64,000 nt of DNA from a virus, in the IMG/VR virus record IMGVR_UViG_3300031963_000003, positions 124,001 through 188,000 of that record; one strand, written 5' to 3'. Shown one piece after another: positions 3,247 to 45,674 of this stretch. Below the pieces are notes generated by a model. It was not told the origin of the DNA and did no database searches. It was given only the letters and a program-made list of their open reading frames with translations. Made by a program: the position numbers and the translations under genes. Within the stretch, counting starts at the first letter, position 1, and each line of letters begins with the position of its first letter.

Positions 3247-3258
3247 ACATTGAATTTA

Positions 3259-3265
3259 TATTTAT
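3259..3265 (+). promoter_or_regulatory. TATTTAT motif upstream of 3272
   Basis: TATTTAT within an AT-rich gap, 6 bp before the start codon at 3272. Same motif class as that at 2365. Confidence 0.35.
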
Positions 3266-3271
3266 GAAATA

Positions 3272-3622: not shown

Positions 3623-3625
3623 TAA

Positions 3626-28767: not shown

Positions 28768-29061
28768 ATGGCGAATGAATTACTTCTATTTACACTTGAG
28801 GGTTGTGGAGGTTGTAAAAGATTAAAAGAGAGACTCCAAAAAGAATCATTACCTTACCGAGAAGTTGAAGTTGGTAAGAATAAAGAGATTTGGAATAAAG
28901 TAATTGAACAAACGGGTAATGAATATTTACCCGCCTTTTACATTAAAAAAGACGACACTGGTAAAGGACCCTTTTTTTGTCCCGAAAAAGATTTTAATGG
29001 GGACGACGAGGCGTTAGCAATTATATTAAAATACATTGAAAAAAAAGAAGGGGGTCAATAA
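28768..29061 (+). CDS. Glutaredoxin-like protein
   Basis: 97 residues with a CGGC active site (C13-C16) in a thioredoxin fold and a YLPAFYI cis-proline-like strand. CGGC is atypical for glutaredoxins (CPYC). Probably a dithiol reductant partnering the adjacent thioredoxin. Its stop codon lies in the terminator hairpin. Confidence 0.7.
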   Translation: MANELLLFTLEGCGGCKRLKERLQKESLPYREVEVGKNKEIWNKVIEQTGNEYLPAFYIKKDDTGKGPFFCPEKDFNGDDEALAIILKYIEKKEGGQ

Positions 29062-29072
29062 CCCCCTTTTTT
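29050..29072 (+). terminator. Terminator between convergent operons
   Basis: GGGGGT (29050-29055), loop CAATA, ACCCCC (29061-29066), then six T. With the A-rich sequence on the left it can also stop transcription arriving on the minus strand from the glycan operon. Confidence 0.8.
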
Positions 29073-30132
29073 ATTTAACTAAACTATTAATCCATTTATA
29101 GGTTTTTTCCATTCCATAGAACAGAGGTTCACTAACAACCCAACCTATTTTTTCGTGGTATAATTTATTGTCTGAATTTCTTCCCCTCACACCAACAGGA
29201 CATTTATATCCATACTTCTGTTTAAATTCTTCCCCACCAATATTTCTGATATAAATTTCTTTACCTGAAATATCTATAGCCATTTGAGCCAAATCATTAA
29301 TTGTTACTTTCTCTTCAGAACCAATGTTTACAGGACCCAAAAAAGAGTCTTGTCTCATTAGTCTTAAAACCGCTTCAACACATTCATCCACATATAAGAA
29401 TGAACGAGTCTGTTGACCATCACCCCAAACTTCAATTTCTCCACCGTCTAACATTTCGGCAACTTTTCTACACATAGCTGCTGGTGCTTTTTCTTTACCA
29501 CCTTTCCACGTACCATATGGACCAAATATGTTATGAAATCTAGCAATTCGAACATCCAAACCGTGATTTCTGTGAAAAGCCAAGTACAACCTTTCCGAAA
29601 AAAGTTTTTCCCAACCATATTCTGAATCAGGATTCGCGGGATATGCTGATGATTCTTCACAATTTGGGTTGTTAGGGTCTAATTGATTGTGTTCAGGATA
29701 CATACATGCCGATGATGAATAAAAAATCTTCTTAACTTTTGTCTTCACTGATTCATTTACAACATTTAAATTTATCATTGCAGAATTGTGCATAACATTC
29801 GCGTCATTTTCACCAGTGAAGATGTAACCAGCACCACCCATATCGGCAGCTAATTGATAAACCTCATCAAATGGGACCTCAGTTGAATATGGTTGTTTGT
29901 AATAATTAAACGGTAATATCGTACCATTTAATTCTTCTAATCTCATTACTGATGATACGTTTTTTGGGTCCGTAAGGTCATATATTAAGAATTCGTCACA
30001 AAAGTCTTTCTCATCAAAATATTCGTGTCTTTTTATATCAACTACTCTTACGTAGTTTCCTTCATTTTTTAATCTTTTTGCTAGGTGACCACCAATAAAT
30101 CCGCCACCACCCAATACTAATACTCGTTTCAT
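29071..30132 (-). CDS. GDP-mannose 3,5-epimerase-like SDR
   Basis: 353 residues, extended short-chain dehydrogenase: NAD-binding GGGGFIGG (8-15), SSSACMYP (139-146) with C143 at the position of the catalytic Cys of GDP-mannose 3,5-epimerase, Y172-x3-K176, and a nearly diagnostic run of family motifs: FHNIFGPYGTWKGG, EKAPAAMCRK, WGDGQQTRSF, VRGRNSDN. The plant-type enzyme makes GDP-L-galactose/gulose from GDP-mannose. An insertion at about 70-85 is extra. It is the last gene of the glycan operon and would supply an unusual sugar nucleotide. Confidence 0.85.
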   Translation of the reverse strand: MKRVLVLGGGGFIGGHLAKRLKNEGNYVRVVDIKRHEYFDEKDFCDEFLIYDLTDPKNVSSVMRLEELNGTILPFNYYKQPYSTEVPFDEVYQLAADMGGAGYIFTGENDANVMHNSAMINLNVVNESVKTKVKKIFYSSSACMYPEHNQLDPNNPNCEESSAYPANPDSEYGWEKLFSERLYLAFHRNHGLDVRIARFHNIFGPYGTWKGGKEKAPAAMCRKVAEMLDGGEIEVWGDGQQTRSFLYVDECVEAVLRLMRQDSFLGPVNIGSEEKVTINDLAQMAIDISGKEIYIRNIGGEEFKQKYGYKCPVGVRGRNSDNKLYHEKIGWVVSEPLFYGMEKTYKWINSLVK

Positions 30133-30746
30133 TTTATTTTTTTAAAAAATCCCTCACCAAAATTATTACCCCACCAAAATTGTTCAACACAGGTAAACCC
30201 ATGATGTGTCATCCAATTGTTTATTTCATCAAAGTGTGGACAACCTTTATATAATTCGGCTCTGTTTATTTCTACAATAACGTAGTCAATGTTGATTAAT
30301 GTATTCACGGAACCTTTGAGAACCTCTAATTCAAAACCTTGAACATCGATATTCATCATGTTGTATTTTGAAAAATCGTAATTTAAATCATCCAATCTAT
30401 CCATTTCAACTTCTTCTACAGAATCAAAAACGATATGAGGAAATTGAACAGAATGTAATTTCGGTTCTAATATTGAGGATGACATACCTTTATTAAAGGA
30501 TTCTACAAACATAGAAACTTTTCTCTTTTCATTACCTAACGCCAGTTTAACTAAAATTGCGTCATCATCTATTTTTTCTTTTAAGGTCTCAAAATTAGAC
30601 GATAGAGGTTCAAAGTATATTCTGTTTGAAATACCCAATTCCTTATAAACTTCATCTTCTTGACCAAAATGTGCACCAACGTGAATCACACCATGGATAT
30701 TAACATTATGATTAATCATAAATGTCTTTAGCTCTATATTATTCAT
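30129..30746 (-). CDS. FkbM-family methyltransferase
   Basis: 205 residues. SAM-binding motif HVGAHFGQE (22-30), acidic YFEPL at the end of strand 2, and the FkbM C-terminal signature MNIDVQGFELEVLKG (132-146). FkbM enzymes O-methylate sugars or small molecules. It overlaps both neighbours by 4 bp (ATGA) and probably methylates a residue of the glycan. Confidence 0.8.
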   Translation of the reverse strand: MNNIELKTFMINHNVNIHGVIHVGAHFGQEDEVYKELGISNRIYFEPLSSNFETLKEKIDDDAILVKLALGNEKRKVSMFVESFNKGMSSSILEPKLHSVQFPHIVFDSVEEVEMDRLDDLNYDFSKYNMMNIDVQGFELEVLKGSVNTLINIDYVIVEINRAELYKGCPHFDEINNWMTHHGFTCVEQFWWGNNFGEGFFKKIK

Positions 30747-31510
30747 TCTCTATCCTCTTTATATTTGTCTTTATTATACAATAAATCCCTGTGTTTTTCA
30801 AGTATTTTTGCTGCGTTTACGTAAACTAAATTATTATGTAATGATTGATTTTTTTGTCTAGTGGTCCCCCATCCAGGTTCGGAAATATAATCTATCGTAT
30901 ATAAACCTGACACTTTTCCGAGTTCTTTGAATGCTCTCATGGACATATCCATATCATCATAATTTTGGGGTGAAAAATATTCGTCTAAAAAATTTAATTT
31001 GACCACGTCATTATAGTTGTACATTAGTGGACCTCTGTTACCATATTCTCTAGCATAAAAAATATCTCTTGATGAGTTATCTTTATGTGCAATATCGATG
31101 TAATTTATTTGTTTTGTTTGTTCATTATAGATGTTATTGTGAGCAACAAAAGATGTTACAGCGAACACATCACTATATTTTATGAACGGTTCCAACATCC
31201 TCTTATCAAAATCTTTTTCTGTGACAACCATATCATCTTGGATTAAGACCACATAATCATTTATAACAGACTTTAGACCAATATTATTTGCTTTGGTTTC
31301 AAAAACATTGTCGGCATACAGGTAATCAATTTTTTTATTACTAACTCTCTTTAAATTGTCACGAACAATACCTTCACTATTATCTGTACAACCATCAAAA
31401 ACTATTACAATCTGGTCATTCAGTTCTGATAAATTATTTACCAAGTTACTCACCACTTGGTTCATTAAGAATTCCTTGTTGTGAATTGTCAATACTACTG
31501 ATGTTTTCAT
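30743..31510 (-). CDS. GT2-type glycosyltransferase
   Basis: 255 residues from ATG 31510, whose ATGA overlaps the stop of the upstream gene; the ATG at 31540 is inside that gene. GT-A fold: SVVLTIHNKEF at the start, IVFDGCTDNSEG, and VLIQDDM as the DxD-like metal site. Sugar donor not predictable. Confidence 0.8.
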   Translation of the reverse strand: MKTSVVLTIHNKEFLMNQVVSNLVNNLSELNDQIVIVFDGCTDNSEGIVRDNLKRVSNKKIDYLYADNVFETKANNIGLKSVINDYVVLIQDDMVVTEKDFDKRMLEPFIKYSDVFAVTSFVAHNNIYNEQTKQINYIDIAHKDNSSRDIFYAREYGNRGPLMYNYNDVVKLNFLDEYFSPQNYDDMDMSMRAFKELGKVSGLYTIDYISEPGWGTTRQKNQSLHNNLVYVNAAKILEKHRDLLYNKDKYKEDRE

Positions 31511-32268
31511 TTTAAAAGATATTTTGATAATTCTATACAATCACCTTTTCTATCAAACAGGTGGTCAACATAATTATACGTTTCAATCACGTTATAATTT
31601 TCTTTGTGAAAAATCCAATTATTTGCCGTTTGCTCACAACAATGATAAATCTTCGAGTCTGTATCAGTCACATCTGAAATGTCTACCGATATCATATCTT
31701 CCATAATTTTTTTTGCTTGGTGAATATTGTAATCCGCGGGCAACCCAAAAATACCTAAATTATAAATTTTAAAATCTAAATCATTTGTAACCTGTTTACA
31801 TATTTTTATTTCACCCCATCTCGGGTCACCATTCCTAACGATTCTTTCATACTTCCAAACCATAATAGAATTATCATCAATTTGTGGTAATTCCGAATGA
31901 AAAAATAAATCATTATCGATTTTTACAGTGTACTCAGTTTCTGATTTTGCATAATTAATAAAATCATTTAAAACTGTAAAACTATAATTAAGACTTTCAT
32001 TGTATTTGGTAAGTTGTTCCGTGTAATCAATATAAATAATTCTGTCTTGGTCAATGTTATACTTGTTCATTTTTTCTTTCATACCCTCAACATCATCAGT
32101 ATAAAGATGTAAAATACTTTTTCTATTCTTATCAATAAATGAAGCATAAGATGCTGATGAATAATCAGATATAAACTCTTTATTTTTGTAGACATCAAAC
32201 GCCCATTTCCGACCGATTTGGGACATTTTATTTAAGTCATAATTATAATTTAATGCAATAAATTTCAT
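31507..32268 (-). CDS. Putative glycosyltransferase
   Basis: 253 residues. The segment VKIDNDLFF (about 122) is a DxD-like site after a beta strand, as in GT-A enzymes, and the operon context supports the call. The overall family is not recognised, so assignment is tentative. Confidence 0.5.
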   Translation of the reverse strand: MKFIALNYNYDLNKMSQIGRKWAFDVYKNKEFISDYSSASYASFIDKNRKSILHLYTDDVEGMKEKMNKYNIDQDRIIYIDYTEQLTKYNESLNYSFTVLNDFINYAKSETEYTVKIDNDLFFHSELPQIDDNSIMVWKYERIVRNGDPRWGEIKICKQVTNDLDFKIYNLGIFGLPADYNIHQAKKIMEDMISVDISDVTDTDSKIYHCCEQTANNWIFHKENYNVIETYNYVDHLFDRKGDCIELSKYLLK

Positions 32269-32939
32269 GGTATATATACGTTGTATTTTATTCTATAATC
32301 GAGACAATAATCAAATTTTAAATTATGTTTCACAACCAAGTTAGTTAATATACTTTGGTCATTTCTATGGAATTGCCAATTTGGAAAATTCTCACCAATT
32401 TGATTTGGTTCATTGTCAACTATCTGTTTAATACTACAATACTTAAAATAATCGTGAACAAATTCCATCATTTGTTTGGTTTTTTTAATGATGATAAATC
32501 CTGCTTCCATCTGTGGTGTTTCATGAAACTTTTCTTCATCACAATCCATCAAGATAAAACAGTCTCTTTTTGTACATATTTTTTGAGGCCAACGATTTCC
32601 ATTCCAATTTGTAAAATAATAATCATTATCTTTCAAATAATTTGCAATCGTATTATAATCAACATCAACTAAATCACCGGCATCGGTATAAATTAATGCA
32701 TCCCCATCTTCTAATTCATTCAAAATATCTAAAATAATTTTTGGTTTCCACAACCAAAATCCATCACCCGTTTCACAATCTAATATTTCTTTATGGTTTT
32801 CATAAAAAATACCTTTCTTAACATCTTCAGATTTAAATCCTCGGATATCATTGAAACCACGTGAATTATAATATCCGATTAATTTTTGAACGGTGTTACT
32901 AAATTTATTGTTGGTGTAAAAAGATAGAACAATTTTCAT
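32265..32939 (-). CDS. Capsular-type glycosyltransferase
   Basis: 224 residues. The core GFWLWKPKIIL followed by LIYTDAGD matches a family of polysaccharide glycosyltransferase-like proteins with a WLWKP motif and DxG metal site; NRWPQKICTKRD is the usual later motif. Overlaps the downstream gene by 4 bp. Confidence 0.65.
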   Translation of the reverse strand: MKIVLSFYTNNKFSNTVQKLIGYYNSRGFNDIRGFKSEDVKKGIFYENHKEILDCETGDGFWLWKPKIILDILNELEDGDALIYTDAGDLVDVDYNTIANYLKDNDYYFTNWNGNRWPQKICTKRDCFILMDCDEEKFHETPQMEAGFIIIKKTKQMMEFVHDYFKYCSIKQIVDNEPNQIGENFPNWQFHRNDQSILTNLVVKHNLKFDYCLDYRIKYNVYIP

Positions 32940-32941
32940 TA

Positions 32942-33643
32942 TTAATGTATCCCCCGAACATTTACGTTTATTTCATATTCATTTATTAATGGAGAGAGTT
33001 CATTAGGGTATTCAGATAAATTCCATTTACCTCTAACTAAAGCCGTTGCTATATATGGATAAACAGAACTATCAAAATGATTCAACCCCCTTTTGTTTTC
33101 ACCATCGTAATGATATAAACCTTTGATGTTGTTTTCTATCATAAAATTTCTATATGTTTCATTCTCTAACCACATATTATTTTTGGTACCTTTCATGATT
33201 TTAATGTAATCATCTTTTTTCCAAATAGTTGGTTGCATAGAAAATATATCTTTATTGTCGGATTCTATTTCATATAAGGTCTCATAAATTTTTTTATCTT
33301 TAACAGACCCCGATTTTAACAATCTAATGAACGAATATTCTTGGTTATCATGTAAAAAATCGAGGTAATTAAAAATTTTATCATGACTGACATTGTTATA
33401 AAGAATAAAGTCTTCTTGTAAGTATATAAAATAGTCATATGGTATTGAAGATAAACACTTTAACCATGATTCATAATAAGGTTCTTGATTTTCATATAAA
33501 AAACAAATTTGCTCGGGTATCATTACATCTGTAATAAAATACATCGGTAAGTTTGTGTACTTTTTTTGTTCTAACAAGAACATATCCAAAATATCTGAAC
33601 ATTTTGAATTTGTATAAGTAACGTAACAAATTTTATTATCCAT
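32942..33643 (-). CDS. Putative glycosyltransferase (GT-A)
   Basis: 233 residues with YFIYLQEDFIL (about 73-83) as a likely metal-binding acidic site and an SxQPTIWKKDD segment later, as in several uncharacterised sugar transferases. Overlaps the upstream FkbM gene by 8 bp. Confidence 0.55.
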   Translation of the reverse strand: MDNKICYVTYTNSKCSDILDMFLLEQKKYTNLPMYFITDVMIPEQICFLYENQEPYYESWLKCLSSIPYDYFIYLQEDFILYNNVSHDKIFNYLDFLHDNQEYSFIRLLKSGSVKDKKIYETLYEIESDNKDIFSMQPTIWKKDDYIKIMKGTKNNMWLENETYRNFMIENNIKGLYHYDGENKRGLNHFDSSVYPYIATALVRGKWNLSEYPNELSPLINEYEINVNVRGIH

Positions 33644-34370
33644 AAGGTGTTAAATTTTTGTTGATATAAACCACATCCATTTCTGTGTTTGAAGATTCTG
33701 GCGACTCGTCTATTGGTATAAACCTATTTAGTTTTTCATCTAGTTCAGATTTACTTGTAGAACCACGATATAATTCCTGTAACCCTACTTCGGTGGTTAT
33801 TATTTTTACATCATTTAAATATTCTTTTAGAGAGTCTAATACGATATTTTCTGCACCTTGAACATCCATCCAAATCAAATCAACACTTTTAATATCATTT
33901 TCTTTTAACCAATCACTAAGAACAATACAGTCAACCTCAGTTTCCTTTTGGGCCCACTGAGATGAACGCCAGTGGTTTGTTGTCTGTAATAAAGAACTGG
34001 CACCCACATTTCCATTATAAACTTCGTAAAATTTAGTTTTACCGTTGTAATTGTTTATTGCGTATTGGTAAACTTTTATGTTATTAATTTTCTCAACGTT
34101 CTTAACTGTAAATTCGTAGTTTTCTTTTACTGGTTCAAACGCATATATTTTAGCATGTGGAAACCATCTATTTAACTCTAAACTTTGGCAACCATCTCTT
34201 GACCCAATATCTAATATTGTGTTGACATCATTAAAGTCAATTTTATCTTTTATAACATTAATCATTTTTGTTGTCCATAATGGACATCTACCATTCAAAT
34301 CGGTAAAGGCACCCCTATTTAATTCATCTTGAGTAAATGCGTCGTCAATAAATTTTGAATTATCTATCAT
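33636..34370 (-). CDS. FkbM-family methyltransferase
   Basis: 244 residues. SAM motif ILDIGSRDGCQS, acidic YAFEPVKENY and WMDVQGAENIVL signature. Second FkbM enzyme of the operon; its sequence is clearly different from the one at 30129, so they probably methylate different positions. Confidence 0.8.
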   Translation of the reverse strand: MIDNSKFIDDAFTQDELNRGAFTDLNGRCPLWTTKMINVIKDKIDFNDVNTILDIGSRDGCQSLELNRWFPHAKIYAFEPVKENYEFTVKNVEKINNIKVYQYAINNYNGKTKFYEVYNGNVGASSLLQTTNHWRSSQWAQKETEVDCIVLSDWLKENDIKSVDLIWMDVQGAENIVLDSLKEYLNDVKIITTEVGLQELYRGSTSKSELDEKLNRFIPIDESPESSNTEMDVVYINKNLTPYG

Positions 34371-34381
34371 TTTTATAATTT

Positions 34382-34972
34382 TTAAATCACCACCATACTA
34401 TAACATGGTGCGTCTTTATATGTGGACAAATTAATATTTCGTTTTAACCAAAAAATTTCATTATCATTACTTAATTCGCCACCCATAAAGTTTATATTTT
34501 TATAGTTAAGTGATATTATATTTTCCGTGATTATTTTTTCCGAATACTCATCGTGTATGGTAGATACATTCCAAATATCAAACACCGTATCTATTTCACC
34601 CTCCACAAAATAATCAACAAAATATTTTCCTTCATTATGCCAAGTCAAAAAATTTACACACTCTTTTTTAAATGTGGAAACTAATCTATTTGCATTAGAT
34701 GGTAGTAAATCACTTCTCCATTTAAGGACTCTGTTGTAACCTATTTCTTTGGCTTTCATTATTCCATTCAAAGTTGATATTTTTTGTAGTGCTATATTTT
34801 GTACACCCCTATCGTGTGGAATACTGTTGAATAAGACAACATCATTAGTATCGTATTTTGATTCTTCACCTTGCCATGTTGACCAAATCAAATCATAACC
34901 AGTCCAAGCGTTTTTTAATTCTTTAACGTAGTCTGAAGGTCCTTGTACTATGACACAAAAATCATTATTCAT
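34382..34972 (-). CDS. WavE-like glycosyltransferase
   Basis: 196 residues. CVIVQGP at the N-terminus, IWSTWQGE, then the N-x(4)-Q-x(2)-S-x(2)-G region and LKWRSDL match the WavE family of lipopolysaccharide core synthesis proteins, here in a short form. Eleven bp separate it from the next gene. Confidence 0.6.
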   Translation of the reverse strand: MNNDFCVIVQGPSDYVKELKNAWTGYDLIWSTWQGEESKYDTNDVVLFNSIPHDRGVQNIALQKISTLNGIMKAKEIGYNRVLKWRSDLLPSNANRLVSTFKKECVNFLTWHNEGKYFVDYFVEGEIDTVFDIWNVSTIHDEYSEKIITENIISLNYKNINFMGGELSNDNEIFWLKRNINLSTYKDAPCYSMVVI

Positions 34973-34978
34973 ACTGAA

Positions 34979-35698
34979 TTAAAATTTTGATATGTGATTA
35001 TGATATTGTGACCCTTCATACATGTATGGTCTAGTTATTTTATTATGTATGAATACATCTAATGCGGAACCAAAATCAATATAAGTGTTATTACTATTAT
35101 TTGTAAACATATGTTTTATGATAACAGCAGATGTTGGTCCACAACATACGATAAATAAAGTATCTTTATATTTTGAAGAAACATTGTATATTTTTTCTAA
35201 AAACGAATCTCTATGTTCTTCCCAATAGTTTACACAATCATTAGGGAACGGTACAAATTCTGATACACTAAATGGTATGTTTTTTAAATCACAATTTTCA
35301 TTACAAATTAAAACAACATCTCGATTTATATTTCTTATTCTTGATATATTTTCTTTGTAATTTGCGTTAATCCATAGGTTAGCAAATGTAATGTTTGATT
35401 TATTTTGTATTCTATCATATAAAAAATTATAGTCTCTAATACTATCAGTTTTGGAGGATATTGCAAAATAAAAATTTGGGTCGTTCAACCCTATACATTC
35501 ATTTAAATCCACACCTAATTTGGTTTGTCCCCCACTCGAAAACCATTTATCGTTTTGATACGCTTGTGTATTCTTTTCTATCGGTGAATTATTCATTAAC
35601 ATCACTTCACCATCGGCATATCTAACAAAAGAAAAGTTAGTTCGACTATCTATCTTTTCCCAAAACGAATTAAAATCTTCAATATACTTTTCAATCAT
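34979..35698 (-). CDS. GT-D (DUF1792-like) glycosyltransferase
   Basis: 239 residues. SFVRYADGE (23-31) corresponds to the conserved R-x-G-D-G-E motif of GT-D enzymes (with Ala for Gly), and FIVCCGPTSAVI plus YIDFGSALD match the later nucleotide-binding motifs. GT-D enzymes add glucose to O-linked glycans of bacterial serine-rich adhesins, which is suggestive given the Thr-rich fibres here. Confidence 0.6.
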   Translation of the reverse strand: MIEKYIEDFNSFWEKIDSRTNFSFVRYADGEVMLMNNSPIEKNTQAYQNDKWFSSGGQTKLGVDLNECIGLNDPNFYFAISSKTDSIRDYNFLYDRIQNKSNITFANLWINANYKENISRIRNINRDVVLICNENCDLKNIPFSVSEFVPFPNDCVNYWEEHRDSFLEKIYNVSSKYKDTLFIVCCGPTSAVIIKHMFTNNSNNTYIDFGSALDVFIHNKITRPYMYEGSQYHNHISKF

Positions 35699-36419
35699 TT
35701 AATATTGTCTTAAATCCTTTATTTACATACCCACGGTAAACTTCACCCATTAAATTCATATTTGAATGATTTACGGAAATTGCGTTGGAATCAGTTCCAT
35801 GTTCCCATGCATATTCTGGTATACTACCCCACATTTCTCTATTTTCTTTAGGATGGGGAGGAACGTAAGTTCCGATATTTGCGTATTTCTGTAATGTATA
35901 TGAAAAGTGCATATCCTCACCAACTAATTTACTCTGATTGATTTCAGGTAATTCTCTCCAAAATATCGATAACCATTCTCTTTTAAAGAACCACGAGTGA
36001 CCAACAATGTCGACCTTTTCAATTTCTTCGTTAGGTTGGTCCCAACCGACTCTTGTTGCTGGCCAATAAGAGTTTTTTGTGTGAAATTTTACACCGATAG
36101 TTCCTAATAAACCTTCTTGAATTTTCATGGTGTTTAGACAGTTTTCTAACCATAGTTTACCCGGTATTGTGTCATCATCAAAAACACAAATATATTCTGT
36201 GTTGGCATTTAAAGCAAATGCAAATCTTGCCCACACACCTAAATTACTATTACAAGATGCGTGAATTAAATCTTTGGTTAGTCCCTCATCAAATTGAGAA
36301 CCAGAATTTTGCCAAAATAAAATTGATTCGGGTTGGACACTTTGATTTCTAATTGATTCCAATTGTTTTTGGAGAACATGTGGTCTTTTATACCCATTTA
36401 ATATTACCGTTATACTCAT
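35691..36419 (-). CDS. GT2 glycosyltransferase
   Basis: 242 residues. TVILNGYKRP, QLESIRNQS and YICVFDDDTIPG (DDD metal site, about 75-78) are classic GT-A family 2 motifs. ATGA overlap with the downstream epimerase-side gene. Confidence 0.8.
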   Translation of the reverse strand: MSITVILNGYKRPHVLQKQLESIRNQSVQPESILFWQNSGSQFDEGLTKDLIHASCNSNLGVWARFAFALNANTEYICVFDDDTIPGKLWLENCLNTMKIQEGLLGTIGVKFHTKNSYWPATRVGWDQPNEEIEKVDIVGHSWFFKREWLSIFWRELPEINQSKLVGEDMHFSYTLQKYANIGTYVPPHPKENREMWGSIPEYAWEHGTDSNAISVNHSNMNLMGEVYRGYVNKGFKTILND

Positions 36420-37408
36420 ACAATTTTTCTAAATATTTCAATGATTCTTTCACAAGAATTACCATCACCAAAAGGACAATCATATTCTGTTTGGAAATCG
36501 TTAATAATATCGTAAAAAATACCTTCTAAGTCAATGGGTTTTTTACATATAAAAGACGTTTTACCCAAGGACTCAGGTCTCTCAGTTTTTTCTCTACATA
36601 CAATAACTTTCTTATTTAGGAACGACGCCTCTTCTTGAACACCCCCACTATCTGAAATTAGTAATTTACAGGATTTGAATTCCTCAATAAATTTATCATG
36701 GGTTAATGGTTCAATAACATCAACATGTGTCAATATATGTTTGTGTTTTATGACGTTTGGGTTTGGGTGTATTGGAAGAATGAATTTTAATTCAGGATTA
36801 TTCTTTGCTAATCGATTGATAACATCAAACCACTCCGACATCATCTCATGATTCTCTCTTCTATGTAAAGTGATTAAGACTTTATTTTCGTATGTAATAT
36901 TTTCTTTATTAAGATTATCTAATACGGTATTGCCAACTACAAAATTTTTACCCTGAACTTTTTCATTTTCTAAGTTCATCTTGTTACTTTCTGTTGGGCA
37001 AAGATTATAGTTTGAAATTCTACTAATTAACTGCCGATACATTTCTTCGGGGTAAGGGTGATTGTAGTCATATGTCCGTAATCCCGCTTCTAAATGAATC
37101 ACTTCTTTTTTATGGTGTAATCCTATTAGGGATAATGAAAGAGCGGTTGCGGTGTCCCCTTGGATAAGTATATGTGTAACCCCTTCCAAAAATTCTTTTT
37201 TAAAATTTAAAAATACGGATGACATAATACTATCCAATCTATTTTCACACGTATCATCAATGGATAATTTATAATCAAAATCACCCAATACAATATCTTT
37301 GTGTTGGGTAACATATAAAATTTTATGGGGAATACTTTCCCCACACATTTCTATTAATTTTTTTATTTTAATATACTCAGGTCTTGTGCCGTAACAAAAT
37401 AATATCAT
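36416..37408 (-). CDS. wecB: UDP-GlcNAc 2-epimerase, non-hydrolysing
   Basis: 330 residues, slightly shorter than typical WecB/MnaA. GTRPEYIK (7-14), ILIQGDTATALS, HLEAGLRTYD with HPYPEEMYRQLISRIS, TLHRREN and ISDSGGVQEEA followed by TERPE are all present. It interconverts UDP-GlcNAc and UDP-ManNAc, supplying ManNAc or its uronic acid for a surface-type glycan. Confidence 0.9.
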   Translation of the reverse strand: MILFCYGTRPEYIKIKKLIEMCGESIPHKILYVTQHKDIVLGDFDYKLSIDDTCENRLDSIMSSVFLNFKKEFLEGVTHILIQGDTATALSLSLIGLHHKKEVIHLEAGLRTYDYNHPYPEEMYRQLISRISNYNLCPTESNKMNLENEKVQGKNFVVGNTVLDNLNKENITYENKVLITLHRRENHEMMSEWFDVINRLAKNNPELKFILPIHPNPNVIKHKHILTHVDVIEPLTHDKFIEEFKSCKLLISDSGGVQEEASFLNKKVIVCREKTERPESLGKTSFICKKPIDLEGIFYDIINDFQTEYDCPFGDGNSCERIIEIFRKIV

Positions 37409-38226
37409 ATATAAGTTGAAATGATTTCTAAATTTTTTAAAGTGTTAGTTTCTAAGAAATCAATTAATTCATCACCTGATAACCTATTAAACCATTCTTC
37501 TAAACTTGCACCATAATTTTGTGTCGTTATTACTTCCAAACCTAAACATTTTGCCTCAACAACCAGTCTACAAAAAGTTTCTCTTGCTATCGGGAAAAAC
37601 ACAATACCTTTACATTTGGCCATATTACTTAAAAATTCAACTCTGTCTTTAGATTCTTTAAGAATATGGACCGGTAATTTATTTTCAGAACAATACTTCA
37701 GACTACCTTGGGTGTTCTTTATCCAATTATTTGTATAGTAAACAGAATATTTGTCGTTTTTAACATTGTTGGATTTATTTAAATTCCTCAATAATTCTAA
37801 GTCCTCATTTGACCATATCGAACTATTCAGATTTATAAAATTAGCAACAACATCGTTTTTAAGATAAACGTTCATGTGGTCGGTTGTTTGAACAAATACC
37901 GCTTTTGCATTCCGGTAAAGAGAATAGTTGGTTCTTTCCTCAATCGGAATTATGTTGTCGGTATATCTCCATGGGTGTCTACTTGCACATATTTTATAAT
38001 CGTTTTCAATAATGACGTAGTTCAAATTTTGTATTTGATTAACCAAGTTTGGGTTCATCAAAGAAATATTTGATATAATATACAGGGCGTTGTAATCAAA
38101 TGACTTGACTTGGTTTGAATATTCAAACTCAAGATTAAATCTATCAATTAAAACTTGATTCACCCATTCAGAACCACCGTGAGGTACTTCTTTAATGGTA
38201 AAATCCGATATAAGTATTTTCCTCAT
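37405..38226 (-). CDS. Putative GT-B glycosyltransferase
   Basis: 273 residues. HGGSEWVNQ near the N-terminus and RETFCRLVVEAKCLGLEVIT in the C-terminal half match the acceptor-loop and the E-x7-E nucleotide-sugar motif of GT4-like enzymes; the N-terminal domain is short. Confidence 0.65.
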   Translation of the reverse strand: MRKILISDFTIKEVPHGGSEWVNQVLIDRFNLEFEYSNQVKSFDYNALYIISNISLMNPNLVNQIQNLNYVIIENDYKICASRHPWRYTDNIIPIEERTNYSLYRNAKAVFVQTTDHMNVYLKNDVVANFINLNSSIWSNEDLELLRNLNKSNNVKNDKYSVYYTNNWIKNTQGSLKYCSENKLPVHILKESKDRVEFLSNMAKCKGIVFFPIARETFCRLVVEAKCLGLEVITTQNYGASLEEWFNRLSGDELIDFLETNTLKNLEIISTYI

Positions 38227-38945
38227 ATAACTTGATAATTTTCTTTTAACATGCTGTCCATGTAATTGAATGGTAAATTAAAATAATGTTCACCGAATTT
38301 ATGTTGTTTATTGAACGATGACAATCTCTTTGCTCTTGAAATGTAAATGTTCTTCACGTAGTCTTTACCCAAGAATTTATAGTGAAGAAGTTTTATTTCC
38401 CGCTCATCCGAAAATTTACCATCAACAGAATTAAAACTGTGACCACCAATGCCGTATTTTATATCTAAATCAGGATGAAAAATTATATTTTTACACATTG
38501 GTTCATACGTTTGTGAACCTGTTTTAATTTTTGTTGTAATGAATTCACCGTCGTATATTGGAAATTCAGTACTAACCATGTCGTGACCGTCTATTCTTGG
38601 GACGGTTATACCCATTTCTTTGTACTCTTGAAGTTTATCCATAAGATTTTCATGGTATATAAACTCATCACAGTCACAAACTATAACCCAATCAACACCC
38701 TGACCTCTACTTCTTTTTTTATACTCTTCGGATTTAATGTTTACGTAATTAATTTCATTTATTTCATTACCACTATCCCATTTAATAACCTCAACTTTTG
38801 GGTACCTCTTATAAATCTCATCAGAGGAGTCCGTTGACATATTATCGTATATGAATATTTTTTCACAGATTGTACTATAGTAATCCAATGTGAATGGTAA
38901 TATTTTTTCTTCATTCCATGACAGTATATGTGCGTGTATCTTCAT
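38223..38945 (-). CDS. GT2/GT92-like glycosyltransferase
   Basis: 240 residues. AHILSWNEEKILP, IYDNMSTDSS and VIVCDCDEFIY (DxDE metal site) are motifs of the glyco_tranf_2_4 type group; a conserved GIGGHSF-like loop and LLHYKFLG follow. Clear glycosyltransferase, donor unknown. Confidence 0.75.
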   Translation of the reverse strand: MKIHAHILSWNEEKILPFTLDYYSTICEKIFIYDNMSTDSSDEIYKRYPKVEVIKWDSGNEINEINYVNIKSEEYKKRSRGQGVDWVIVCDCDEFIYHENLMDKLQEYKEMGITVPRIDGHDMVSTEFPIYDGEFITTKIKTGSQTYEPMCKNIIFHPDLDIKYGIGGHSFNSVDGKFSDEREIKLLHYKFLGKDYVKNIYISRAKRLSSFNKQHKFGEHYFNLPFNYMDSMLKENYQVI

Positions 38946-38946
38946 T

Positions 38947-39726
38947 TTAAAATATGTTTTTCCAAAGTGTTAATATCTCTTCGTTACTTAATTTAGAAAC
39001 TTCATTCATAGTCTCTTCATTACCATAAAACTCTGTACCGGTTAAATAACATTCATCTTTAACCAAACAAGCAACCTCACCCTTTGATGAGTGATATACC
39101 TTACCAATCATATCGTACATTTCTTGTTTATTGGTGGTGTGACCGTAATGAATTACTCTTGGATTCATTAAAGGTTTTACCAATTTGTCAAAATAGTTTT
39201 GGTCACCGATGTGACCGAACAAATAGATTTTTTCACACCTGTCTTTTAATGCTCTTTGTATTGACACATGGGTCTGTTTTCTGTCTTCAATTGTACCAAT
39301 AATTCCTGCAATATTTCTTACCAGCTCTTTATTTGAAATAATTAAATTTTCTTTGATGTTTGGTATTATTACATAATCACCCCTGTAATCCGAGTGATAT
39401 TTTCGATGCTCTTCATGTAAAAACACGCACAGGTCCCAATACTGTTTAATTTTACCAACAGGGAACCACCATTTTTCATGACAAGACAAAATAACTTTTT
39501 TAACAGGTGGTCTTTCCTGTAGTTGTAAAAAATGGGTAATTACAATATCATCAGATTCATACTTTAAATCTTTTTCAATGTTCCCTGATTTACATTTGTC
39601 TAAATGGTAATTCTGATTACCGTAAAATGTGCAATCAATACCATTTTCATTTAAGAAATTTGTTAAGTTTATAAAAAAAGTGGTAGAACCACCTTTTTCT
39701 GTAAATCCCGATACAATTTTTATCAT
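38947..39726 (-). CDS. GT-B glycosyltransferase
   Basis: 259 residues. EKGGSTTFFINL at the start, a middle GTIEDRKQTH segment and a late EVACLVKDECYLTGTEFYG segment with EFYG near the nucleotide-sugar site fit a small GT4-like enzyme. ATGA overlap with the preceding 485-residue gene. Confidence 0.6.
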   Translation of the reverse strand: MIKIVSGFTEKGGSTTFFINLTNFLNENGIDCTFYGNQNYHLDKCKSGNIEKDLKYESDDIVITHFLQLQERPPVKKVILSCHEKWWFPVGKIKQYWDLCVFLHEEHRKYHSDYRGDYVIIPNIKENLIISNKELVRNIAGIIGTIEDRKQTHVSIQRALKDRCEKIYLFGHIGDQNYFDKLVKPLMNPRVIHYGHTTNKQEMYDMIGKVYHSSKGEVACLVKDECYLTGTEFYGNEETMNEVSKLSNEEILTLWKNIF

Positions 39727-41180
39727 CTTAATTGTTTGATATTTTTTCTAATTTCAGGTGAGTTTATGTACTGACCTAAGACTTGTTTTAATTCAACATC
39801 AACCTTTTCAAATTTTGATGCCATATCAATCATTACCACACTGTTTGTGTCAATGAATGTTTTACGTTTTTTAAGTAAAGTTTTCAACGCAAAATCTAAG
39901 TTATAAATTGATGTTTCTAAATTAATATCAAACCAATCAATCATTTTTAAATTTGTAGATGTAGTGGCAAAAAAGTCACTAATACTACCAAAATTGTTTG
40001 GAAAGTGTCCGTGTAAAATATTGAAAAAAGATGATTTGTTTTTAAAAATTAAATTGAACTGTTCGTTGTTTTGAACTATATCCAATCCATTTGAAAAAAT
40101 TGTTCGGTCGTTTTCTAATACTGTAGGAAAGACGCACCCAAAAGTATTTTTTTCACTCTTAAATATTGAATACATACTTGAGAAAACGTCGTTCAATACG
40201 GTAACAGTATCATTACTGAAAAATAACAAATCTGTTTTTGATTCCATAAACGATTCATCCCATTTCAGTACTGATAAGTTTTTATTTAATGTATCAAAAA
40301 AACCCTCGTAAATTTTAATATTTTCAGATTCAAATTCTCTAATATTGTCTATATTGGTATCCGTCGAGATGAGTGAAATCTGTAAACTATCAAACACTGG
40401 TAATTTTTTTATGTTTTCAAAAAACTGAATTAAATTTTCATTATCGTTTGATGTTTGAACTATTAAATTAAATTTATCTTTAAACTGTTTTGGTTTGGTT
40501 ATGTCATAATCAATTTTTGGTGTTATATTAATTGGTAGGTTCTCTTTAAATTTTTCAATGTAAAATTCCCTATTCTTTTCCCAAGAATCATTGGTCATTC
40601 CGATTGATTTGTGAGTGATTCTTATGTTGTATATAACACCGATGTTTACCTCACTTAAGTGATTGCTAGTACAGAATACCATATCATAAAAATGAAAACC
40701 CGGTACTGACTCATCAAAAGTGTGTTTTATTCTGTTTTTGTGGATTCCAATGAATAAACCATCCACTAAACAAACTTCGTGAATTGAATTTGGGATTCCA
40801 TTTGCATATCTCGATTCCCATTTTTTACCCTCATTTTCATGATTAACAATACCAACCATTTTGGTATTATCTGTCCACCACCTACCACTCTCATGAATAT
40901 TGGTTGTACCGGCAACACCGAGAATCCCGTAGTCAGATTCTTCAAAATGTTTGACTAATTTTCTACCCCACGAAGTCGTATTAAAGTAAATGTCATCATG
41001 ACAAAGTACGACAATATCATGAATCGACTCTTGAATAATTTCATTGTAAGTTTGTGAAAGACTTTTTTCACCATTGTTTACTTTTTCAATAACTTGAACT
41101 TTGGGGTGTCCACAAGTTTTTTTTAAATATTCTTGAAATTTTGGGTTGGACTCTCTTGTACTGTAACCTATTGTAATCAT
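39723..41180 (-). CDS. Large glycosyltransferase, StrF-like N-terminus
   Basis: 485 residues and first gene of the operon. The N-terminal 230 residues resemble the glyco_tranf_2_5/StrF domain: LSQTYNEII, IVVLCHDDIYF (DD metal site), LGVAGT and VDGLFIGI. The C-terminal 250 residues have a second alpha/beta unit (FNLIVQTSNDNEN, LLFFSNDTVTV) that could be a second transferase domain. Bifunctional enzymes of this sort often build chains. No promoter could be assigned with confidence in the 50-bp leader. Confidence 0.65.
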   Translation of the reverse strand: MITIGYSTRESNPKFQEYLKKTCGHPKVQVIEKVNNGEKSLSQTYNEIIQESIHDIVVLCHDDIYFNTTSWGRKLVKHFEESDYGILGVAGTTNIHESGRWWTDNTKMVGIVNHENEGKKWESRYANGIPNSIHEVCLVDGLFIGIHKNRIKHTFDESVPGFHFYDMVFCTSNHLSEVNIGVIYNIRITHKSIGMTNDSWEKNREFYIEKFKENLPINITPKIDYDITKPKQFKDKFNLIVQTSNDNENLIQFFENIKKLPVFDSLQISLISTDTNIDNIREFESENIKIYEGFFDTLNKNLSVLKWDESFMESKTDLLFFSNDTVTVLNDVFSSMYSIFKSEKNTFGCVFPTVLENDRTIFSNGLDIVQNNEQFNLIFKNKSSFFNILHGHFPNNFGSISDFFATTSTNLKMIDWFDINLETSIYNLDFALKTLLKKRKTFIDTNSVVMIDMASKFEKVDVELKQVLGQYINSPEIRKNIKQLR

Positions 41181-41229
41181 TTTTTTGTTTTAAAATATTG
41201 ATGATAATATAAGAAATAAAATTCACAAC

Positions 41230-41430
41230 TTAAAATTTGGAACCGTTTGGTGCAAGACCGTTGTGATTATCAATTTGTTTTCTAAAATCTTCTCTAGTGT
41301 TATATAGGTCAAGAGCTCGGTTTACTAATTTTTGTAGATTGATTGAACCATCTACACTTTTTATCTTAAATCTTTTATAAACATCATCTATGATGTTAAC
41401 GCTGGTTAGTTTTGTTTGTTGTTTAGGCAT
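41230..41430 (-). CDS. Ribbon-helix-helix DNA-binding protein
   Basis: 66 residues from ATG 41430 (MPKQQTKLTSVNI); the upstream ATG at 41469 falls in the terminator/promoter region. A short beta strand TSVNI, then two helices (DDVYKRFKIK and SINLQKLVNRALDLY) give the Arc/MetJ pattern. Such proteins repress transcription as dimers. It lies just upstream of the glycan operon in the same direction and may regulate it. Confidence 0.7.
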   Translation of the reverse strand: MPKQQTKLTSVNIIDDVYKRFKIKSVDGSINLQKLVNRALDLYNTREDFRKQIDNHNGLAPNGSKF

Positions 41431-41467
41431 AATATAAGTATATAAATTTATATATATTATAAAAGAC

Positions 41468-41502
41468 AAAAAATATCGGACAATTTATTAGACTGTCCGA
41501 TA
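41468..41502 (-). terminator. Rho-independent terminator on the minus strand
   Basis: Perfect 9-bp arms TATCGGACA (41474-41482) and TGTCCGATA (41494-41502); on the minus strand the hairpin is followed by six T (41473-41468). It closes the small gene ending at 41507. Confidence 0.8.
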
Positions 41503-41506
41503 CAAT

Positions 41507-41692
41507 TTATTGTCCTTCTGTGTTTTCTTCGTTAGTTTGATTGTTAATCTCCTCAACCTTTTTTATGATTTGGTCAAGTTGTTGTTCCATAATTGTAATC
41601 TCCTGTGGAGGTGTTGAACCACCTTCGGTTAGTTGAATGTTTACCGTTTGATTACTAACAGGTTGGTTTCTTTTTTTACATCCGCATCCCAT
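41507..41692 (-). CDS. Small protein with MGCGCKKR start
   Basis: 61 residues. A Cys-rich N-terminus (MGCGCKKR) is followed by a Gln/Thr-rich linker and a coiled coil (EQQLDQIIKKVEEINNQ). Tiny proteins of this design recur in large phages; the function is unknown. TATTTAT precedes it on the minus strand. Confidence 0.55.
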   Translation of the reverse strand: MGCGCKKRNQPVSNQTVNIQLTEGGSTPPQEITIMEQQLDQIIKKVEEINNQTNEENTEGQ

Positions 41693-41708
41693 GATTTTAA
41701 GTTTTTTT

Positions 41709-41715
41709 ATAAATA
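41709..41715 (-). promoter_or_regulatory. TATTTAT motif (minus) upstream of 41692
   Basis: The minus strand reads TATTTAT 16 bp before the start at 41692. Confidence 0.35.
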
Positions 41716-41779
41716 TTTTGGTTTATTGTTTTTTATTCGTTATCTTTTGTAATAATAATAAATAGAAAACAATTTGTCA

Positions 41780-42628
41780 ATGGAAATGAATAAAATTTAT
41801 CAGGGTGACTGCTTAGAACTGTTTAAGGAGTTAAATGACGGTACTGTAGACCTCTTTGTTACGAGTCCACCGTACAATGTCGGTATTAGTTATGATGTGC
41901 ACAAAGACGATGCTCCGATGGATGAGTATTTTGAGTGGTGTAAGAAATGGTTATCCGAAGTTTACCGTACATTAAAAGATGATGGTAGAATTGCCTTGAA
42001 TATACCATATGAAATAAACGTTAGAGAAAGAGGTGGGAGAATTTTCTTAGTATCTGAATATTGGCAGATGATGAAAGAGATTGGTTTTGGATTCTTTGGT
42101 GTTGTGGACTTAGAGGAGGATTCTCCACACCGTTCTAAAACAACCGCTTGGGGTTCTTGGATGTCACCATCATCACCATACATATACAATCCAAAAGAAT
42201 GTGTAATTCTTGCATATAAGAAAGATTACAAAAAGAAAGAAAAAGGTATATCTCAATGGTCTTATAATCAGATTGAGGTCGAAAACGAGGAAGGTAATTT
42301 TAAAAACAAAAGGGTTTATTCAGATAAAGACAAAAACGAATTCATGGAATTAGTCTTTGGTCAATGGAAATACTTCAACGACACAAAATCTTTAACTAAA
42401 GCCACATTCTCCATGGACATCCCAATGAAAGCAATAAAAATACTTTCCTATCAAAATGACCTGATTGTTGATTGTTTTTCAGGAAGTGGAACCACCGCTT
42501 TGTCAGCTAAGAAGCTGAATAGAAATTATATTGGTTTTGAGTTATCAGAATCTTACACAAAGATATCTCAACAGAGATTGATTGATTATGATAACCAAAA
42601 GAAACAACTGGTAATGTTTGAAGAATAA
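41780..42628 (+). CDS. DNA methyltransferase, beta-class (N4-C or N6-A)
   Basis: 282 residues from ATG 41780. Catalytic TSPPY (28-32) comes first and the SAM motif DCFSGSGTTALSA near the C-terminus, the beta-class order. The target could be N6-adenine or N4-cytosine; SPPY is more often N4 but not decisive. No cognate endonuclease is nearby. It is the second orphan DNA methylase of the window. Confidence 0.85.
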   Translation: MEMNKIYQGDCLELFKELNDGTVDLFVTSPPYNVGISYDVHKDDAPMDEYFEWCKKWLSEVYRTLKDDGRIALNIPYEINVRERGGRIFLVSEYWQMMKEIGFGFFGVVDLEEDSPHRSKTTAWGSWMSPSSPYIYNPKECVILAYKKDYKKKEKGISQWSYNQIEVENEEGNFKNKRVYSDKDKNEFMELVFGQWKYFNDTKSLTKATFSMDIPMKAIKILSYQNDLIVDCFSGSGTTALSAKKLNRNYIGFELSESYTKISQQRLIDYDNQKKQLVMFEE

Positions 42629-43417: not shown

Positions 43418-43616
43418 AGAAAAGAAATACATCACGGATTTTTTTGTAATAAGAAAGAAATACCATTGGTTTCTTTTACCAACTCCCATATTTTACTACC
43501 GTAAAGACACGTTTTTTGAAACCGGTGCAACCTCACCAAGCTGGGGTTTGGCTTTGAGATTCTTAATTTTTATGGTCGGTATTCAGATACAGAAAAACAT
43601 ATATTATAAAAAATGA
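43407..43616 (+). CDS. Small hypothetical protein, 69 residues
   Basis: Basic, aromatic-rich protein with one possible membrane segment near the C-terminus (LALRFLIFMVGIQI). Overlaps the upstream gene by 11 bp and the glutamine synthetase by 4 bp. Confidence 0.5.
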   Translation: MSNKEKKYITDFFVIRKKYHWFLLPTPIFYYRKDTFFETGATSPSWGLALRFLIFMVGIQIQKNIYYKK

Positions 43617-44737
43617 AAACAAAAGTAGAATACGTATGGCTTGATGGGTATTCCCCTGAGCCAAATCTCAGAAGTAAAATAAAAATTGTGGACCTACCGG
43701 CACCATTTGAATTGAAACACATCCCCAATTGGGGGTTTGACGGAAGCTCAACTAAACAAGCGGAAGGTAACTTTTCAGATTGTTATCTTAAGCCAGTAAA
43801 ATTATATCATACAAATAGTTCACTTGATACAGTATATGTATTATGTGAGGTTTTAGATGGTAATAATGAAATTCATCCATCAAATCATAGAGCAAAAGTA
43901 GGTGAGGAAGATGTAAATTTTTGGGTTGGATTTGAACAGGAATATTTTATTCGTTCTTCACATAATAATCCAATTCTTGGATTTGAAAGAAATGGTATCA
44001 TTGACGGTCAAGGAATTTATTATTGTGGTGTAGGTGGACATATTGTTGGTCGAAATATTTCTGATGAACATTTGAACATGTGTTTAAAATATGACATCAA
44101 TGTGGAGGGAACCAATTCAGAGGTTGCATTAGGTCAATGGGAATACCAAATTTTTGCAACAGGTAAAATTGCCGCTTCTGATGATTTATGGATGAGTAGA
44201 TATTTTTTACATAAAATTGCTGAGAAATATGGTCGTTCTATTGAGTTACATCCCAAACCGATGACCCACGGAGAATGGAACGGTTCAGGTTTACATACAA
44301 ATTTCTCAAATCAAAAAATGAGAGAAGAGGGTGGTGAACAATACTTCAATGCAATTTTTAGGTCTTTTGAATCAAGAACACAAGAACATATTGACTCTTA
44401 TGGTTCTGATAACCATTTGAGATTAACAGGTCATTTTGAGACACAATCTATTGATAAATTTAGTTGGGGTGTCTCAGACAGAGGTGCATCTATCCGTGTA
44501 CCAAAATCCGTTGGTGAGACATGGAAGGGTTATCTTGAAGACAGGAGACCAGCATCACACGCGGACCCATATAAAATCGTTAAAGTGATTAGTGATAGTT
44601 TATCATTAGCCGAAGAATTAAATAATGTTCATCACATGATGAATGTTGAAATAGACACCGAAAAAATTGTAAATAAATACGGTACACTTTCAGGGGAGGA
44701 ACTCTTGGAAAGTTATCGAAAAGATGAAGAAGAATAA
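43613..44737 (+). CDS. Glutamine synthetase, type II (eukaryote-like)
   Basis: 374 residues, full length for GSII. Beta-grasp start YVWLDGY with LRSKIKI, WGFDGSS, SDCYLKPV; catalytic FEQEYF, NVEGTNSEVALGQWEYQ, HPKPMTHGEWNGSG with LHTNFS, and LTGHFETQ with SWGVSDRGASIR and LEDRRPASHADPY all remain, so it should be active. It makes glutamine from glutamate, ammonia and ATP, supporting purine/pyrimidine synthesis during infection. Type II enzymes occur in Bacteroidota as well as eukaryotes; capture from the host is the simplest source. Confidence 0.9.
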   Translation: MKTKVEYVWLDGYSPEPNLRSKIKIVDLPAPFELKHIPNWGFDGSSTKQAEGNFSDCYLKPVKLYHTNSSLDTVYVLCEVLDGNNEIHPSNHRAKVGEEDVNFWVGFEQEYFIRSSHNNPILGFERNGIIDGQGIYYCGVGGHIVGRNISDEHLNMCLKYDINVEGTNSEVALGQWEYQIFATGKIAASDDLWMSRYFLHKIAEKYGRSIELHPKPMTHGEWNGSGLHTNFSNQKMREEGGEQYFNAIFRSFESRTQEHIDSYGSDNHLRLTGHFETQSIDKFSWGVSDRGASIRVPKSVGETWKGYLEDRRPASHADPYKIVKVISDSLSLAEELNNVHHMMNVEIDTEKIVNKYGTLSGEELLESYRKDEEE

Positions 44738-45514: not shown

Positions 45515-45674
45515 AAGACAATATAAAATTTACATTAAACAAAATCCCAACTCAAATCTTTCTTATGAGGAATGGGAAAAAAATTTTTTGGAAAATTTGA
45601 AATTGGGTATGGAATTAGGTGACGATTTTTCAGATTGGGACGTAACTTTAATGGACGGTTTGGAGGATGAATAA
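45501..45674 (+). CDS. Small acidic protein in overlapping frame
   Basis: 57 residues, helical basic N-terminus and acidic C-terminus. It overlaps the thioesterase by 14 bp and the next gene by 8 bp. No recognised family. Confidence 0.5.
   Translation: MSTLKRQYKIYIKQNPNSNLSYEEWEKNFLENLKLGMELGDDFSDWDVTLMDGLEDE

Follow-up and report, generated by a model that had tools for sequence, protein, structure and literature searches.

Mucin-type O-glycosylation is usually regarded as a process of the eukaryotic secretory pathway, and the glycosylation of phage virions is itself already known. The enzymes that initiate the mucin-type modification on Thr in Trypanosoma and Dictyostelium belong to the GT60 family, which forms GlcNAc-alpha-Thr on T. 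cruzi mucins (PMC9472816; PMC8724618). In mycobacteriophages, the C-termini of capsid and tail-tube proteins are glycosylated with few enzymes, and phage-encoded transferases are proposed to be responsible, according to the papers that cite this work (Freeman et al. 2023, cited in PMC12619734 and PMC10877033). Chloroviruses encode glycosyltransferases as well as sugar-nucleotide and methyl-transfer enzymes, and build a conserved glycan core carrying virus-specific outer sugars (PMC9614988). The moraphages, aquatic Bacteroidota jumbo phages, have four core glycosyltransferase orthogroups, and the available portion of their description makes no mention of GT60, Thr/Pro mucin-like proteins or cassette exchange (PMC12619734). 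Our literature search found no report of GT60-dependent or mucin-type virion glycosylation in phages.

Here we analyzed a 64,000-nucleotide stretch (hereafter the window; positions 124,001 to 188,000 of the IMG/VR record IMGVR_UViG_3300031963_000003) from a lake virus of bacteria whose host has not been cultured. We lean towards the view that its operon at 29071-41180 is one of two glycan operons with which the phage carries out modular, cytoplasmic glycosylation of its own virion proteins, chiefly its Thr/Pro-rich fibres. Such a system would share with Trypanosoma cruzi and Dictyostelium the PF11397 family, Thr/Pro-rich repeat acceptors and the addition of later sugars by separate transferases. 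It would differ in that the phage version, with an activity predicted from genes, presumably works not in the Golgi but in the cytoplasm of a bacterium, and in that its cassettes are operonic, phage-borne and exchangeable. Unlike the mycobacteriophages, as far as the citing papers describe them, this phage has, besides giant proteins rich in Thr, two operons that encode a GT60 initiator and enzymes for sugar nucleotides and methyl capping. The chlorovirus enzymes have counterparts here, whereas those viruses infect eukaryotic algae and place N-linked glycans on the major capsid protein, with no mucin-like acceptor. With the moraphages, as covered by the available text, the phage shares a freshwater origin, a genome of ~290 kb, glutamine synthetase and putative core glycosyltransferases, a likeness in general traits and not a clade placement by TerL, MCP or PolB.

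The fifteen-gene operon of the window

The operon comprises 15 tightly packed minus-strand ORFs (29071-41180), which on the ORF reading form one unit closed by an intrinsic terminator, a strong terminator-like stem and T-run directly past the last gene (29048-29068, minus strand). Eight of the 14 junctions are 4-bp, ATGA-type overlaps, if the ATG at 31510 is taken as the start of the third gene from the 3' end; two are 8-bp overlaps, and the other four are gaps of 1, 2, 6 and 11 bp. This confirms the layout given by an earlier, sequence-only reading of the window (gaps of 11 bp or less, mostly ATGA overlaps). A second terminator-like hairpin with a T-run lies upstream of the operon (41473-41503, minus strand), and terminator-like sites were in excess overall (16 observed, compared with 4.7 +/- 2.2 in shuffles). 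Promoter motif matches did not exceed the shuffled expectation, no Bacteroidota-type promoter was found upstream of the operon, and an Rfam search returned zero elements. The gene directly upstream (41230-41430, minus strand) encodes a small protein that, by eye, resembles a ribbon-helix-helix (RHH) protein; its homologue (58%) immediately precedes a non-homologous glycan cluster in the relative G009.

The last gene of the operon (29071-30132) encodes a GDP-mannose 3,5-epimerase, with 2c59 as its best PDB match (E=1.3e-87). The Cys, Tyr, Lys and Lys positions that we take to be catalytic are kept in this alignment, so that the epimerase-like assignment of the earlier reading is strongly supported. 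The UDP-GlcNAc 2-epimerase and the two FkbM methyltransferases that it had named likewise exceed the Pfam cut-offs: the former is of the WecB type (36416-37408; PF02350, E=4e-60) with ~33% identity to annotated epimerases, and the latter lie at 30129-30746 and 33636-34370 (PF05050, E=1.3e-16 and 1e-19, respectively). Four glycosyltransferases also pass: two GT2 enzymes (30743-31510 with its ATG start at 31510, and 35691-36419; PF00535, E=1.9e-12 and 1e-6), a GT2-like protein with homologues in the related loci L533 and L543 (38223-38945; PF13704, E=3.2e-15), and the 485-aa, GT2-type product of the head gene (39723-41180; PF13712, E=2.9e-24).

Two further proteins fall below the curated cut-offs, a possible GT-B glycosyltransferase (37405-38226; PF00534, 17.8 bits against a cut-off of 26.4) and a GT-D-like protein (34979-35698; PF22882 and NF040628). 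The remaining five genes, at 31507-32268 (253 aa), 32265-32939 (224 aa), 32942-33643 (233 aa), 34382-34972 (196 aa) and 38947-39726 (259 aa), gave no usable Pfam, PHROG or NCBIfam match. The earlier count of eleven glycosyltransferases is therefore only partly backed, with four supported by Pfam, two weakly so and five without a family, and the WavE-like label placed on 34382-34972 found no profile match. A homologue of the 38947-39726 product with 82% identity comes after the head gene in L533, and a protein 33% identical to the 32942-33643 product, for which structure prediction without an alignment reached a pLDDT of 40, occurs in the L543 glycan cluster.

GT60 genes and Thr/Pro-rich proteins

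The window operon has no GT60 gene of its own. Two GT60 (PF11397) genes lead a second, plus-strand glycan operon in assemblies of this phage that extend beyond the record, and three independent assemblies contain the window operon at 100% identity plus this second, GT60-headed operon. The search for a first-sugar O-glycosyltransferase suggested by the sequence-only reading thus yielded two candidates. In G001, both match the family significantly (E=3.1e-72 and 7.1e-48), and PF11397 was found in 0 of 14 control genomes. The Q-x-D-S-H motif (Q94, D96, S97, H98) is invariant in 24 homologues, with the D-x-H metal/nucleotide-sugar motif kept. A PDB sequence search with GT60 gave zero matches. When a phage homologue (83% identical) was modelled by AlphaFold2 (pLDDT 92), its top 38 PDB matches were mucin-type polypeptide GalNAc-transferases (best E=1.2e-10); as modelled, the phage GT60 fold is related to that of the mucin-type polypeptide transferases. 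A hydroxyproline route (prolyl hydroxylase followed by GT60, as for Skp1) was set aside, as no 2OG oxygenase was found in this phage. A 2OG oxygenase does occur in the G010 cluster, and also in G009 and G033.

Candidate acceptors lie at the start of the window, where three plus-strand genes encode fibre-like proteins with Thr/Pro tracts: 1-2334 (854 aa in all, with its start outside the window), 2398-3246 and 3626-6547 (973 aa). They adjoin a gene for a probable tail protein (6585-8735, plus strand), which is kept in relatives at 36-54% identity. From the gene positions, the Thr/Pro proteins are probably located in the virion. The Thr/Pro fibres reported earlier at 1-6547 are thus real, and were understated, given that the phage's largest Thr/Pro ORF, of 5,472 aa, ends shortly before the window begins (contig 107307-123725). 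Thr occupies 97% of the alternate positions in its 4,625-aa core even though 13,710 of its 13,815 60-mers are distinct, indicating that the alternating pattern is maintained at the protein level, and the sequence is identical in a second assembly. To our knowledge, this ORF is among the most Thr-dense proteins. The earlier description of the operon as lying alongside the fibres is loosely worded, since the fibre genes stop 22.5 kb before the operon.

Among 80 IMG/VR GT60 loci, a Thr/Pro-rich gene stood immediately upstream of 16 of the 84 GT60 genes, compared with 37 of 1417 other genes (Fisher p=6e-9). After de-duplication of the phage loci, the count was 12 of 62 against 3.4 expected, and none of 5000 permutations was as high. 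The proposed search for homologous operons beside Pro/Thr fibres therefore returned GT60 genes directly downstream of Thr/Pro genes above expectation. The gene directly upstream of this phage's own GT60 pair is not Thr/Pro-rich, and the adjacency was not significant for the bacterial GT60 homologues, which occur in many bacteria (2/60, p=0.12). Both GT60 and the Thr/Pro motif are common in this lineage. Because their co-occurrence per contig was not significant (4/5 versus 9/15, p=0.6), we used immediate adjacency as the evidence.

Cassette exchange and the acceptor of the glycan

No close DNA relatives were found among annotated phages. In about 20 related phage contigs, the N-terminal ~220 aa of the head gene product are kept, and the conserved head gene leads non-homologous cassettes; the variable glycan cassette of these relatives is flanked by conserved tail-region genes. 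L543 groups together a GT60 gene, a fibre gene, the head gene, the epimerase, the GT2 gene and other homologues of the window operon, and additionally holds homologues of the second operon. Related phages keep the initiator and head genes and exchange the remainder of each cassette; the outer glycan is therefore predicted to be strain-variable.

The cassettes of the relatives break into a block of conserved structural genes, in which three further GT-like genes are kept (contig 40577-42426 and 45466-46686). Together with the four moraphage orthogroups known from the available text of PMC12619734, this would fit a glycan carried by other virion proteins (capsid, tail tube or sheath), as in mycobacteriophages. 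We regard this as unlikely, since neither the placement of GT60 beside Thr/Pro genes nor the rigid alternation of Thr in the giant ORF would then be explained.

Alternatively, the operon could rewrite LPS, capsule or S-layer polysaccharides on the surface of the infected host and so, for instance, keep competing phages out, as has been proposed for serotype-converting or cyanophage LPS clusters. Loci for surface polysaccharides typically contain epimerases, FkbM methyltransferases and GT2 enzymes, other phages are known to carry surface-glycan genes, and the content differs strongly between related phages, as in serotype loci. However, in agreement with the lack of Wzx/Wzy or an ABC exporter noted in the earlier reading, Pfam recognized no flippase, polymerase, lipid-linked sugar-1-phosphate transferase or complete ABC exporter in either operon, and hydropathy revealed no multi-span membrane protein in them. 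The sole ABC membrane protein of the phage (contig 204799-205641) lacks an ATPase domain and lies away from the operons. Since, in addition, the cassettes of relatives sit among tail genes and the system includes a polypeptide transferase family, a host-surface target seems rather improbable.

The Thr/Pro tracts might instead be flexible spacers that carry no glycan, with the glycan operons serving an unrelated purpose. The tracts occur lineage-wide with or without a visible GT60, as in G009 (212 kb), where GT60 was not detected, and their mere presence is as frequent near TerL (22/40) as near GT60 (33/59). The immediate adjacency is nevertheless above expectation, and in the unrelated isolates XacN1 and RAS14 the GT60 gene is accompanied by the Thr/Pro motif (39 and 10 matches, respectively), whereas 15 phage records without detected GT60 have no such motif, making pure spacers very unlikely. 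Some phages are known to have glycosyltransferases that act on hydroxymethylated bases, and this phage carries DNA methylases and genes of nucleotide metabolism, but hypermodification of its DNA is hardly credible, as its thymidylate synthase retains the FNIASY motif with the Asn of true TS, no dCMP/dUMP hydroxymethylase was recognized in a genome not covered profile by profile, and we know of no DNA-glycan pathway as large as fifteen sugar genes plus GT60 and methyl caps. The earlier interpretation, a methylated oligosaccharide assembled on mucin-like fibres or else a rewriting of host surface glycans, with a cytoplasmic protein or DNA substrate favoured by the missing exporter, is supported in part: the initiator, the adjacency and the tail-gene cassettes speak for a protein substrate, the missing exporter agrees with it, and the TS Asn disfavours DNA.

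Proposed pathway and its significance

In the preferred reading, the glycosylation of the phage's own fibres by the two operons, the GT60 pair would attach the first sugar, probably GlcNAc, to the Thr residues of the alternating-Thr tracts, as its family, fold and position suggest. Soluble glycosyltransferases from both operons would then lengthen the chain, with the window operon extending the GT60-started chains. The phage GDP-mannose 3,5-epimerase may help to supply GDP-L-galactose or GDP-L-gulose, and the UDP-GlcNAc 2-epimerase may do so for UDP-ManNAc. Finally, the FkbM and other methyltransferases would cap the chain. The likely outcome would be very long fibres with a highly hydrated, mucin-like coat, serving in protection, adsorption or both. 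A strain-variable sugar coat on the phage's own fibres is probable, because two sugar-chain gene sets occur together with an alternating-Thr giant protein and relatives of mucin initiators.

More tentatively, a widespread group of aquatic and mostly uncultured phages may perform cytoplasmic mucin-type O-glycosylation, in which GT60 would start the chains on giant alternating-Thr virion proteins and recombining operons like that of the window would supply strain-specific methylated outer sugars. If so, bacteriophages would possess mucin-type O-glycosylation with their own initiator, extender and capping enzymes, which would be a source of cytoplasmic O-glycosylation enzymes usable in E. coli. 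A Thr/Pro gene upstream of GT60 would serve as a rule for finding acceptors, and the long glycosyltransferase lists of many environmental jumbo phages would be accounted for in part. It would also suggest a route by which such phages vary their surface, an antigen-like variation in a phage counterpart of mucins.

The glycan operon and its phage

The gene layout bore out the fifteen-gene minus-strand operon proposed at 29071-41180 by the sequence-only reading: its junctions comprise eight overlaps of four bp, two of eight bp and four gaps of 11 bp or less, and an intrinsic terminator at 29068-29048 closes it. Firm identities were obtained for a GDP-mannose 3,5-epimerase, a UDP-GlcNAc 2-epimerase, two FkbM methyltransferases and four GT2-type glycosyltransferases, and weak family matches for one GT-D-like and one GT-B-like protein. 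Five genes had no usable match in Pfam, PHROGs or NCBIfam, so the proposed eleven glycosyltransferases are a plausible number but one with only partial support, from the four firm and two weak assignments. No multi-span membrane protein was found among the operon products. Activities named here for glycan-operon enzymes are predicted ones.

The operon's UDP-GlcNAc 2-epimerase has an identical copy in 12 IMG/VR contigs other than the 233,563-bp record that holds the window at positions 124001-188000, the longest being G001 (288,260 bp). The nearest large terminases are those of Microcystis phage Mel-JY01 and Flavobacterium phage immuto, at ~28-29% identity. The source metagenomes of the phage contigs are presumably lake samples. 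By general traits the phage resembles the recently described moraphages of Bacteroidota (PMC12619734), being alike in size, in a phage-encoded glutamine synthetase (window 43613-44737, PF00120/PF03951) and in several further glycosyltransferase-like genes. These two considerations together suggest a phage of lake origin with a Bacteroidota host. Elsewhere, the window's own record (G000) encodes an ABC transporter membrane domain without an ATPase domain (G000:204799-205641, or L021:17799-18641; PF13748, E=2e-13). Many small proteins carry common N-terminal motifs (such as MKIIITESQLK or MxxVIRLTESDL) before unrelated bodies (G001:234000-262000 and, in a related contig, G010:138000-177000), perhaps as a targeting or processing tag.

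GT60 genes in a second glycan operon

GT60 (PF11397) enzymes start mucin-type O-glycosylation, forming GlcNAc-alpha-Thr in T. cruzi, and likewise act as the initiator in Dictyostelium (PMC9472816, PMC8724618). PF11397 was matched in 10 of 39 records with Thr/Pro repeats versus none of 14 control genomes; in the 177-kb contig G010, a cluster of glycosyltransferases includes a 1,754-aa Thr/Pro ORF, and the gene that follows it is a GT60 (E=1.9e-70). The window's own 233,563-bp record, which ends early relative to G001, contains no PF11397 match. The longer assembly G001 supplied the first-sugar O-glycosyltransferase that the earlier reading had suggested seeking: a second, plus-strand glycan operon (265,375-281,748) whose first two genes are GT60s, followed by nucleotidyltransferases, methyltransferases, more glycosyltransferases and a RuBisCO-like protein. 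The last of these (G001:272967-274196, locus L153/L154; PF00016, E=8.6e-24) perhaps performs an isomerase-type step in sugar metabolism. The first part of operon 2 is 100% identical in three independent assemblies (G001, G048 and G042), apart from a 237-bp stretch missing from one, and each also carries the window operon's epimerase at 100%; both operons belong to one phage. For a phage GT60 with 83% identity (L178), the top 38 PDB matches of the AlphaFold2 model were mucin-type polypeptide GalNAc-transferases.

Thr/Pro proteins and their association with GT60

The Thr/Pro tracts described in the window fibres (1-6547) are present, and directly upstream of the window lies a single 16.4-kb ORF (G000:107307-123725; L019, L020) encoding 5,472 residues, 2,471 of them Thr; the independent assembly G001 carries an identical copy. 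In the ORF's 4,625-aa core, which at 0.2-0.3 nm per residue would by our estimate be roughly 1 micrometre long, Thr occupies 97.2% of alternate positions and is nearly absent from the rest, which are chiefly Pro, Asn and Val. The mixture of synonymous codons (13,710 of 13,815 60-mers are distinct) shows that the alternation is kept at the protein level and not via recent DNA duplication.

Relatives of this phage's GT60 occur in at least 579 IMG/VR phage stretches and in three of 50,697 annotated phage records (Xanthomonas phage XacN1, Stenotrophomonas phages CM1 and RAS14). The proximity to Pro/Thr genes that the earlier reading had suggested looking for in other phage genomes was seen for GT60. 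Across 80 phage loci, a Thr/Pro-rich gene lay directly upstream on the same strand for 16 of 84 GT60 genes versus 37 of the 1417 others (Fisher p=6e-9); after de-duplication to one locus per 90%-identity cluster this was so for 12 of 62, where 3.4 were expected and none of 5000 permutations gave as many as 12. The TPTxTPTxT DNA motif was found in 26 of the 30 GT60 contigs with a length of 50 kb or more and in both GT60 isolates tested. It was absent from 15 reference or cyanophage-like records, in all of which GT60 was likewise undetected. Because the motif is common anyway in the phage's own lineage (13/20), where contig-level co-occurrence with GT60 is not significant, the adjacency result is the one that carries weight.

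Conserved heads, exchanged cassettes and the likely acceptor

The closest relative, contig G055 (TerL 96% identical), retains the two GT60s, at 86% and 91% identity, together with the first genes after them, and most of the remaining operon 2 is swapped for other glycan genes. This tandem pair (G055:109271-111805) lies nearly end to end, reading as one 856-aa open frame by genome search versus two genes 9 bp apart by gene call. The N-terminal 220 residues of the window operon's head gene (39723-41180) are conserved in ~20 other contigs. In most of these the gene has conserved tail-region genes around it, and behind it come about ten genes, the majority of them non-homologous. In another relative, G009, the small gene preceding the window operon has a counterpart ahead of a glycan cluster without homology to that operon; the region at this site takes up 91 kb (G009:21011-111999; L119-L124). 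Inspected mostly by eye, this region contains transferases, methyltransferases, a DegT-like aminotransferase, NDP-sugar epimerases, a carbamoyltransferase-like protein, and SGNH-hydrolase-like and fibre genes. A single locus, L543, combines a GT60, a fibre gene and homologues of the window head gene, UDP-GlcNAc 2-epimerase, GT2 and others with operon-2 homologues, suggesting that the two operons are functionally linked.

Phage-encoded virion glycosylation is already known, from mycobacteriophages, and chloroviruses carry glycans with a conserved core and a variable tail (PMC9614988). We found no report of the GT60/mucin-type version: the literature searched, which omits most subscription journals and preprints and so gives no proof of absence, yielded no study of a GT60 or hydroxyproline GlcNAc-transferase in phage, and a broader Skp1/GlcNAc search returned no title on a bacteriophage enzyme of this kind.

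The glycan genes could possibly rewrite the host surface, or glycosylate virion proteins other than the Thr-rich fibres. DNA modification by the glycosyltransferases is unlikely, as the phage's thymidylate synthase (window 46675-48000; 441 aa, unusually long via insertions) retains a TS-type motif. The data fit a cytoplasmic system for glycosylating virion proteins with the Thr-rich fibres as main acceptor, in which the Thr/Pro proteins would be located in the virion, GT60 would start the chain, other transferases, those of operon 1 included, would extend it, and methyltransferases would cap it.
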